Source of the DNA: Ramlibacter sp.
GTDB lineage: Bacteria > Pseudomonadota > Gammaproteobacteria > Burkholderiales > Burkholderiaceae_C
Assembly (NCBI RefSeq): GCF_013697775.1
Contig: NZ_JACCWG010000003.1
Coordinates: forward strand, 1 to 38,449
Reading direction: 5' to 3'
DNA length: 38,449 bases
The notes below the pieces were generated by a model. That model was given only the letters and a program-made list of their open reading frames with translations, searched no databases and had not been told where the DNA came from. Position numbers and translations under genes: made by a program. Below, in pieces: positions 10,902 to 13,594 of this stretch. How positions within the stretch are numbered: position 1 is the first letter of the stretch; each line of letters starts with the position of its first letter.

Positions 10902-11507
10902 CTACTTCAGATCACCAGCGAGGGACGCCAGCGTCTCCGCCGCGATGGTCACATGCGCCGGGTAGTTGGTGTGGTCGCAGCCCAGCTTCACCGCGGCGCC
11001 GGCCTTCATGGCGCTGCACATCGCCGGCGTGAACTCGAAGCGCAGGAAATGCACCGCCGAGGTCTTCTCGTCGTTCTCGCGGTCCAGGTCCTCGTCGGCG
11101 ATGGCGTACACGCGCGCAAGGCCTTCCACCTCGGCGAACATGCGGTCTTCCACGCCGATCAGCCGGGCCAGCTCGCGCTTGCGCTCGTTGCCGTCCGGGT
11201 ACTCGATCAGCATGGTGGCCTTCCAGTTGCTGCCGTCCGGCACCAGCGGCGCATAGGACTCGACCTCCTGCTGGATGCCCTCTTCCTCGAAGATCTTCTC
11301 CACGCGCAGCATTTCCTGGATCTGGTAGCGCATGGTCAGCTCGCTTTCGAACTGCACCGTGATGTGCTCGCCCAGATGCACGCTGCGCAGCTTGCGGTGG
11401 GCGATGATGTCGCCCTTGTGCGCCTTGCGCCACTTGCTGTACGCCTCCAGCGTCATCAGGTTGTCGGCGGTGATGTTGCCGGTCAGCTGCATGTCATTCG
11501 ATGCCAT
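10902..11507 (-). CDS. DUF3501 family protein
   Basis: A 201-residue soluble protein without signal peptide or membrane span. I recognise the DUF3501 family from the opening NLMTLEAYSKWRKAHKGDIIAHRKLRSVHLGEHITVQFESELTMRYQIQEMLRVEKIF and the C-terminal phrase KLGCDHTNYPA. Of its two Cys, the one in the GCDH context is a candidate functional residue. The start at 11507 overlaps the end of the upstream Fe-S gene by 14 bp, with AAGG just upstream; a downstream ATG at 11492 is also possible. Family function is unknown. The overlap implies translational coupling with the Fe-S protein and, with rubrerythrin, a shared role. Confidence 0.88.
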   Translation of the reverse strand: MASNDMQLTGNITADNLMTLEAYSKWRKAHKGDIIAHRKLRSVHLGEHITVQFESELTMRYQIQEMLRVEKIFEEEGIQQEVESYAPLVPDGSNWKATMLIEYPDGNERKRELARLIGVEDRMFAEVEGLARVYAIADEDLDRENDEKTSAVHFLRFEFTPAMCSAMKAGAAVKLGCDHTNYPAHVTIAAETLASLAGDLK

Positions 11508-12846
11508 AGGCCTTGCGCACCAGCGTCAGCGGGTGCTCCAGTTGCGGCGCACCCAGCGCGTTGCGCTCGAAACCCTGCGCGATGTGGTGGCCGGCCAGCG
11601 CGCAGTCGGAGCTGATGTAGTCGGGCTGGCCGCCCGCGGGATGGTCGGCCATCTTCTTGACCAGCGGCTTGCCGATCTTCATGGCGGTTTCGTGCGTGGC
11701 CTTCTTCACGCCGTAGGTGCCGGCATGGCCGGAGCAGCGCTCGTTGGTGTGCACCGTGGTGCCGGGAATCATCTTCAGCAGCTCCTCGGTCTTCCTGCCG
11801 ATGTTCTGCACGCGCGAGTGGCAGGGCACGTGGTAGCTGACCTTGCCCAGCGGCTGCGGAAATTCGGTCTTCAGCAGCCCGTCGCGCCGGCGCGAGGTGA
11901 GGTACTCGAACGGGTCCCACATCGCCTTCTTCACCGCCTGCACCTCGGCGTCGCCGGGGTACATCAGCGGGATTTCCTGCTTGAACATCAGCGTGCAGCT
12001 GGGCACCGGCGACAGGATCGCGTAGCCGTCCTTCGCGTAGCGCGCCAGCATCGGCACGTTGGCGCGCTTGCTCTCGTCCACGGAGTCCAGGTCGCCCAGT
12101 TCCAGCTTGGGCATGCCGCAGCACTTTTCCTTCCCGACCAGCACGTAGGGAATGGCGTTGTGATCCAGCACCTTCAGCAGGTCCAGGCCGATGCCGGGCT
12201 CGTTGTAGTTCACGTAGCAGGTGGCGAAGATGGCGACCTTGCCGGGCGTGCGCTCGCCGTCGCGCACCGGGTGCTCGGTGCTGGCGGGCGCTGCACCGCG
12301 GAAGCGCCGCGTGGCCAGCGCCGGCAGCCAGGCGTTGCGGTCCACGTGCAGGGTTTTCTCCAGCGCGGCACGCATCGGCTTGGTGCCGTTCACCGCGTTG
12401 ACGGCCTGCGACACGATCGGGATGCCGGCGAACTGCCCGTGCACGTCGGTGGACGACAGCAGCTTCGCGCCGAAGTCCACGCCGCCCTGCTTGAACTTGA
12501 TGGCCTTGGCGCGCAGCATGGTGTGCGGGAAGTCCAGGTTCCATTCGTGCGGCGGAACGTAGGGGCACTTGGTCATGTAGCACAGGTCGCACAGGTAGCA
12601 CTGGTCGACGATCTTCCAGTAGTCCTTCTTGTCGACGCCGTCGACCTCGCCGGTCTTGCTCTCGTCGACCAGGTCGAACAGCGTCGGGAACGACGCGCAC
12701 AGGCTCACGCAGCGGCGGCAGCCGTGGCAGATGTCGAAGATGCGCTCCAGCTCCTTGAAGGTCGCTGCTTCGTCGTAGTACTCGGGGTTCTTCCAGTCGA
12801 TGGGATGGCGCGTGGGCGCTTCCAGACTGCCTTCGCGGGCGGCCAT
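11494..12846 (-). CDS. Heterodisulfide-reductase/GlpC-like Fe-S protein (two 4Fe-4S motifs, two CCG-type domains)
   Basis: A 450-residue soluble Fe-S protein. The first cluster motif is C40-x2-C43-x2-C46-x3-C50 (CHGCRRCVSLC). The second is C83-x2-C86-x2-C89-x4-C94-P (CYLCDLCYMTKCP), with one residue more than the standard CX2CX2CX3CP. Then come cysteine-rich domains of the HdrB/GlpC kind: CYVNYNEPG...EKCCGMP and VPCHSR...ERCSGHAGTYG. No flavin domain is present, so it needs an electron partner; candidates are rubrerythrin and DUF3501 encoded beside it. It starts at ATG 12846, 96 bp after rubrerythrin. It resembles GlpC but sits with neither glpA nor glpB, and the electron donor and acceptor are unknown. 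Confidence 0.9.
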   Translation of the reverse strand: MAAREGSLEAPTRHPIDWKNPEYYDEAATFKELERIFDICHGCRRCVSLCASFPTLFDLVDESKTGEVDGVDKKDYWKIVDQCYLCDLCYMTKCPYVPPHEWNLDFPHTMLRAKAIKFKQGGVDFGAKLLSSTDVHGQFAGIPIVSQAVNAVNGTKPMRAALEKTLHVDRNAWLPALATRRFRGAAPASTEHPVRDGERTPGKVAIFATCYVNYNEPGIGLDLLKVLDHNAIPYVLVGKEKCCGMPKLELGDLDSVDESKRANVPMLARYAKDGYAILSPVPSCTLMFKQEIPLMYPGDAEVQAVKKAMWDPFEYLTSRRRDGLLKTEFPQPLGKVSYHVPCHSRVQNIGRKTEELLKMIPGTTVHTNERCSGHAGTYGVKKATHETAMKIGKPLVKKMADHPAGGQPDYISSDCALAGHHIAQGFERNALGAPQLEHPLTLVRKAYGIE

Positions 12847-12942: not shown

Positions 12943-13365
12943 TCAGTCGGTCAGCTCGTTCAGGGCCTTCTGGTAGCGGTTGGCGTGCGAGCGCTCGGCC
13001 TTGGCCAGCGTCTCGAACCAGTCGGCGATCTCGTCGTGGCCTTCTTCGCGCGCCGTCTTGGCCATGCCCGGGTACATGTCGGTGTACTCGTGGGTCTCGC
13101 CAGCCACGGCGGCCTTCAGGTTGTCGCGGGTCGGGCCGATCGGCAGGCCGGTGGCCGGGTCGCCGCACTGCTCCAGCCACTCCAGGTGGCCGTGGGCATG
13201 GCCGGTTTCGCCTTCGGCGGTGGAACGGAACAGCGCCGCCACGTCGTTCTGGCCTTCCACGTCGGCCTTGTTTGCGAAGTACAGGTAGCGCCGGTTGGCC
13301 TGGGATTCGCCGGCAAAAGCGGCCTTCAGGTTTTCTTCGGTCTTGGAGCCTTTGAGAGCAGCCAT
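12943..13365 (-). CDS. Rubrerythrin without rubredoxin domain
   Basis: A 140-residue ferritin-like di-iron protein. The ligands are readable: E20 ([11 protein letters not shown]), E53-x2-H56 (GETGH), E90 and E93 (AGETHEY, the extra Glu of rubrerythrins) and E124-x2-H127 (AERSH). A C-terminal rubredoxin CXXC domain is absent, making this the short type, so reducing electrons for peroxide turnover must come from another protein; the Fe-S protein encoded next is the obvious candidate. The start at 13365 has GGAG 6-7 bp upstream (AAGGAGAAACTCG). It leads the rubrerythrin-Fe-S-DUF3501 operon and is preceded by an OxyR-like dyad. Confidence 0.95.
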
Positions 13366-13417
13366 CGAGTTTCTCCTTGTGGGTGGATGAACGGGCGCGA
13401 GGCGCCCGGATTGGCCG

Positions 13418-13483
13418 AGCGTAGCCGCGAGCCGGGCACGCGTCTAATAGCGCGAGTCAATGCACCCCATTGTCATAGGCTAT
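13418..13483 (-). promoter_or_regulatory. Candidate OxyR/LysR-type box plus promoter of the rubrerythrin operon
   Basis: At 13447-13483 the sequence reads ATAG-N7-CAAT-N7-ATTG-N7-CTAT, four tetranucleotides with the exact 11-bp pitch and 37-bp length of OxyR boxes (consensus ATAG-N7-CTAT-N7-ATAG-N7-CTAT) and with dyad symmetry. On the minus strand the box abuts a -35 candidate TAGACG (13441-13446), then 17 bp, then -10 candidate TACGCT (13418-13423). Activation by a regulator contacting RNA polymerase at -35 is consistent with a peroxide-scavenging operon. The inner tetrads differ from the E. coli consensus, so the exact regulator is inference. Confidence 0.5.
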
Positions 13484-13545: not shown

Positions 13546-13594
13546 TTGTGGCGCAGCAGAATTACGATACAGTAAACGCATTACGCATTGGTAA
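13546..13594 (+). promoter_or_regulatory. Promoter and tandem TTAC-N6-GTAA operators of the VOC/hydroxylase operon
   Basis: Two identical-format dyads, TTACGATACAGTAA (13562-13575) and TTACGCATTGGTAA (13581-13594), lie 19 bp apart centre to centre. A -35 candidate TTGTGG (13546-13551) and -10 candidate TACAGT (13569-13574) are separated by 17 bp, so the first dyad covers the -10 and the second the start of the transcript. This placement suits a dimeric repressor such as a MarR, TetR or GntR protein; none is encoded in the window. Confidence 0.5.

Follow-up and report, generated by a model that had tools for sequence, protein, structure and literature searches.

A predicted OxyR box upstream of the rubrerythrin operon of Ramlibacter sp. 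and an Irr-type palindrome at related loci

Which regulator controls the rubrerythrin operon of Ramlibacter sp., and is it named by the box in front of its promoter? The stretch of DNA that we analysed (38,449 nucleotides, hereafter the window) carries the box ATAGCCTATGACAATGGGGTGCATTGACTCGCGCTAT on its minus strand (13483-13447), between rbr, whose ATG lies at 13365, and a divergent glyoxalase gene that runs from 13609 onward. Its four tetranucleotides, ATAG, CAAT, ATTG and CTAT, are separated by seven bases each and thus follow one another at an exact 11-bp pitch. The first-pass annotation had described this box of 37 bp, and both the box and its coordinates proved exact. It had also reported a -35 hexamer that abuts the box and a -10 hexamer 17 bp further on, and both can be read in the sequence as claimed (Table 1). 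Based on sequence comparisons, we consider the box very probably to be an operator of the peroxide sensor OxyR. This makes it a known kind of regulatory site and a sound prediction, not a new type of system.

Table 1. Coordinates of the predicted promoter elements and operon genes in the window.
Feature	Coordinates	Strand	Evidence
OxyR box (predicted), ATAG-N7-CAAT-N7-ATTG-N7-CTAT	13447..13483	-	Exact match; conserved at rbr; motif also upstream of ahpC
-35 hexamer TAGACG	13441..13446	-	First base directly after the box; T-n-GACG conserved in 79 loci
-10 hexamer TACGCT	13418..13423	-	17 bp past the -35; T, A and final T conserved
Ribosome-binding site AAGGAG of rbr	13373..13378	-	Read directly from the sequence
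rbr, rubrerythrin of the aerobic type (140 aa), without rubredoxin domain	12943..13365	-	Pfam PF02915, 2.9e-30
RFO gene, CCG-domain Fe-S protein	11494..12846	-	Pfam PF02754, 1.7e-14; GlpC models below cut-off
DUF3501 protein, third operon gene	10902..11507	-	Pfam PF12007, 2.2e-73

The operon itself is the known aerobic-type rubrerythrin cluster rbr-RFO-DUF3501. It has the same three genes together and the same kind of rubrerythrin, lacking a rubredoxin domain, as the cluster described by Cardenas et al. 2016 (PMC5114695). RFO follows rbr in 110/110 orthologous loci, and DUF3501 is present in all 80 loci that are long enough to show it. Neither OxyR or PerR nor promoters or the regulation of the cluster came up in a text search of PMC5114695, and the point that we add to this earlier description is predicted OxyR control. 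Our search of titles and abstract openings, which took in few subscription journals, found no paper naming OxyR control of rbr-RFO-DUF3501; this is weak evidence of novelty.

Expression data are available from B. pseudomallei, where bpss1839, bpss1838 and bpss1837 are annotated as rubrerythrin, ferredoxin and hypothetical protein (PMC4175613). From its place in the gene order, we infer that bpss1837 is the DUF3501 gene. On an array, these three genes were up by 3.3-3.4 log2 units 10 min after addition of 100 uM peroxide, with ahpC up by 4.54 and katG by 3.64 log2 units (PMC4175613). This induction counts in favour of OxyR control. The same genes were reported to be partly sigma-E dependent (PMC4175613), which counts against it.

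Conservation and rarity of the box

We determined how widely the box is conserved in the upstream regions of 110 orthologous rbr genes, consisting of 80 loci from named genomes and 30 from the set of the window's genus, the window included. Within this sample, L018 and L110 are one and the same site. The loci were scored against ATAG-N7-CWAT-N7-ATWG-N7-CWAT with a threshold of at least 13/16 positions, which was reached by 79 of the 110, compared to 0.5% of trials with shuffled upstream regions. All 16 positions matched in 29 loci. The box-bearing loci span Burkholderiales, other betaproteobacteria and some gammaproteobacteria, so the box is conserved upstream of rubrerythrin orthologues, as the first-pass annotation had asked to be checked. 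Among relatives, CAAT and CTAT both occur as the second and as the fourth tetranucleotide, with CAAT prevailing in the fourth. The dyad symmetry noted in the first pass is perfect in the window's box; symmetry itself is not the property that is conserved among relatives.

Not all close relatives share the box. It is absent from the rbr upstream regions of L100 and L119, which counts against OxyR control. Some low-scoring genus members keep the elements with altered spacing, an example being the site listed as L018 and L110, which is 1 bp longer. In the Burkholderia relatives L066, L075, L090 and L091, the box is present and its first element is degenerate.

The promoter is conserved together with the box. 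Among the 79 box loci, alignment columns 38 and 40-43 are conserved (T-n-GACG), beginning right after the box, and the -10 columns 61, 62 and 66 hold T, A and T, respectively, in 72-84% of the loci, at a fixed distance from it. An OxyR site is expected to adjoin or overlap the -35 of its target, and the box does adjoin the predicted -35 of rbr, with a spacing that is kept across these 79 loci. The combination of a full four-element site and a weak -35 is consistent with activation of the promoter.

The box is rare both in the window and in the genome. Allowing up to three mismatches, it is the sole match in the window, and 100 dinucleotide shuffles gave none. No other place in the 4.88-Mb genome matches the pattern exactly, and a simple composition estimate leads one to expect approximately 3e-5 exact matches. 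Only three other places match at 3 mismatches, and the reversed pattern used as a control has zero matches even at this level. A chance resemblance, to which only the short length of each tetranucleotide lends itself, can hardly be credited in view of this expectation and of the excess of conserved loci over shuffles.

At 2 mismatches, the only sites of native composition in the genome are those at rbr and ahpC. Two matches with 2-3 mismatches on contig C189 were discarded for their composition, approximately 30% GC versus 60-70% GC in other sampled stretches. Matches with 3 mismatches on C259, C314, C456 and C461 were discarded as well, as a reversed-pattern control likewise yields 3. Separately, we observed that contig C189 of this genome (G000; L002, L004) has stretches of approximately 30% GC while the rest of the genome is near 66% GC; these stretches probably represent foreign DNA or a contaminant introduced by binning.

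A second site at ahpC and the candidate regulator

The geometry of the box had been likened to that of E. coli OxyR sites, and this likeness holds: the rbr box agrees with the E. coli consensus at 14 of 16 positions, and the spacing is exact. Like the box, the E. coli and P. aeruginosa sites (ATAG-N7-CTAT-N7-ATAG-N7-CTAT) consist of four tetranucleotides at 11-bp pitch. Unlike this consensus, the inner pair of the rbr box is CAAT/ATTG, and the fourth element is mostly CAAT in the relatives. Such CAAT/ATTG variants also occur in documented OxyR targets (PMC5720770, PMC5002191), those of P. aeruginosa among them (PMC5720770). OxyR contacts four adjacent major grooves when oxidised and two separated pairs when reduced, and transcription is activated by the oxidised form alone (PMC2881104, PMC3953959, PMC5002191).

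A resemblance to other OxyR targets of the same genome was a further check proposed in the first pass. The ahpC gene of the window's genome starts at C123:31419, and a near-match to the box is located at C123:31312-31348, i.e. 107 to 71 bp before the ahpC start, with approximately the same spacing to its promoter as at rbr. We trained a scoring matrix on 53 rbr boxes, all from outside the genus set, and ran it on the 300 bp upstream of 28 ahpC genes of the genus. In 28/28 members, the window's genome included, the top-ranking site lay between -104 and -116 of ahpC and scored above the 99th percentile of shuffles as well as above the top score of the random genomic stretches tried. A motif learned at one peroxide-defence operon thus locates another, in the same place every time, and this is the strongest argument for OxyR.

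Two results at ahpC count against this reading. The ahpC site of the window's genome scores 16.4 bits, lower than the 30.8 bits of the rbr box, and it was missed when the genome was scanned with a sequence-only model (R1, E<=10), which returned the rbr site alone and no further regulon members. The gene katG could not be used as a second target because none was found in the window's genome and the katG upstream regions of relatives match poorly (10-14/16), which likewise counts against.

Contig C8 encodes the best OxyR candidate of the genome, directly behind recG in the order recG-oxyR. It carries GHCFRDHVLEVC, which matches the redox pair Cys199/Cys208 of known OxyRs, and the solved structure nearest to it is that of P. 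aeruginosa OxyR (4x6g, 1.1e-88). Its score against the NCBIfam OxyR model is under the cut-off, like those of the OxyR candidates in all 15 beta- and gammaproteobacterial genomes checked. Directly after oxyR, at 477-1400 on the minus strand of L005, we noticed a gene whose protein by eye resembles a DyP-type peroxidase, in a genome where we found no katG.

Could the box instead be bound by another LysR-type regulator, with the operon answering a different signal? With 55 matches to the OxyR model in the genome, mostly other LysR-family proteins, candidates are at hand. We nevertheless regard this as improbable, since the matrix trained on rbr boxes marks ahpC throughout the genus, the layout of four tetranucleotides is the published OxyR signature and no LysR gene is among the ORFs listed around the operon.

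It is less probable still that OxyR binds the box but mainly serves the divergent glyoxalase/FAD-monooxygenase operon. The box does lie in the shared intergenic region, approximately 125 bp before the start of that operon. However, its distance to the rbr promoter is fixed, the divergent side has a conserved element of its own and 49 box-bearing rbr loci have no glyoxalase neighbour. Because of these 49 loci, we assign the box to rbr. The element on the divergent side, approximately TGCGTAAYGCRTTTACTATACCGTAAT when read towards rbr, is located at window positions 13561-13592 before the divergent operon and occurs in most of the genus members that have this operon.

With OxyR as the preferred regulator of rbr, OxyR binding, activation in response to peroxide and the enzymatic function of the operon can be inferred to proceed as follows. 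Hydrogen peroxide would oxidise the two sensing cysteines of OxyR, and the oxidised tetramer would settle on the four adjacent sites of the box. Bound there, it would recruit RNA polymerase for transcription of rbr-RFO-DUF3501, the products of which would remove the peroxide. Such control would add a widespread, little-studied peroxide-defence operon to the OxyR regulon predicted for a large bacterial group. The rbr promoter also offers a ready handle on what RFO and DUF3501 do.

An Irr-type palindrome at rbr loci lacking the box

Twelve rbr loci without the OxyR box carry the palindrome TTTAGA-N5-TCTAAA or a near copy of it in the rbr upstream region (L033, L044, L062, L064, L065, L071, L074, L077, L086, L092 and L094, plus L085). 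The palindrome of L085 is the weakest of the twelve and its spacing is different. We take the palindrome to resemble the Irr box (ICE) consensus of alphaproteobacteria. In that group, an Irr box lies upstream of the ferritin-like gene mbfA/blr7895 (PMC3413700), and it is this ICE that the palindrome of the rbr relatives resembles. The mbfA/blr7895 product is a different, membrane-bound protein, unlike rbr (PMC3413700), and the window's site, unlike that of the Irr-controlled mbfA/blr7895, is of the OxyR type. Only one Fur-family gene is present in the window's genome, and it encodes a full-length Fur.

A whole-genome family search of 40 genomes found an Irr-like protein in 11 of the 13 genomes scored with the palindrome versus 3 of the 27 scored without it (Fisher p ~1e-5, an association that is inflated by relatedness). 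Four of the Irr-like Fur-family proteins were scored against models and fit Irr/IrrA best, under the cut-offs. PerR had been considered as the regulator of the palindrome and was dropped, as Fur-family proteins score best against Irr/IrrA, though below cut-off. Fur-like metal motifs were also sought in the vicinity of the rbr loci with regular expressions, which gave nothing useful.

These purely comparative results suggest that OxyR and Irr-type control replaced each other at the rbr operon. It seems more likely than not that the operon has repeatedly swapped its controller in beta- and gammaproteobacteria: OxyR, a peroxide-sensing activator, would control it in the majority of Burkholderiales; in others, the controller would be an Irr-like repressor of the Fur family that acts on TTTAGA-N5-TCTAAA, and a few lineages would have both sites on one promoter. 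The split between box and palindrome would then offer a natural example of a single operon passing from a peroxide sensor to an Irr-type (iron/haem) regulator or back, and we consider this exchange a more interesting lead than the box itself. The RFO protein tree requires three or more changes of the palindrome, even when only well-supported branches are considered. Both sites are found at L034 (-133) and L037 (-82), from gammaproteobacterial symbionts of Ctena, where the OxyR box is accompanied by a palindrome over the likely -10.
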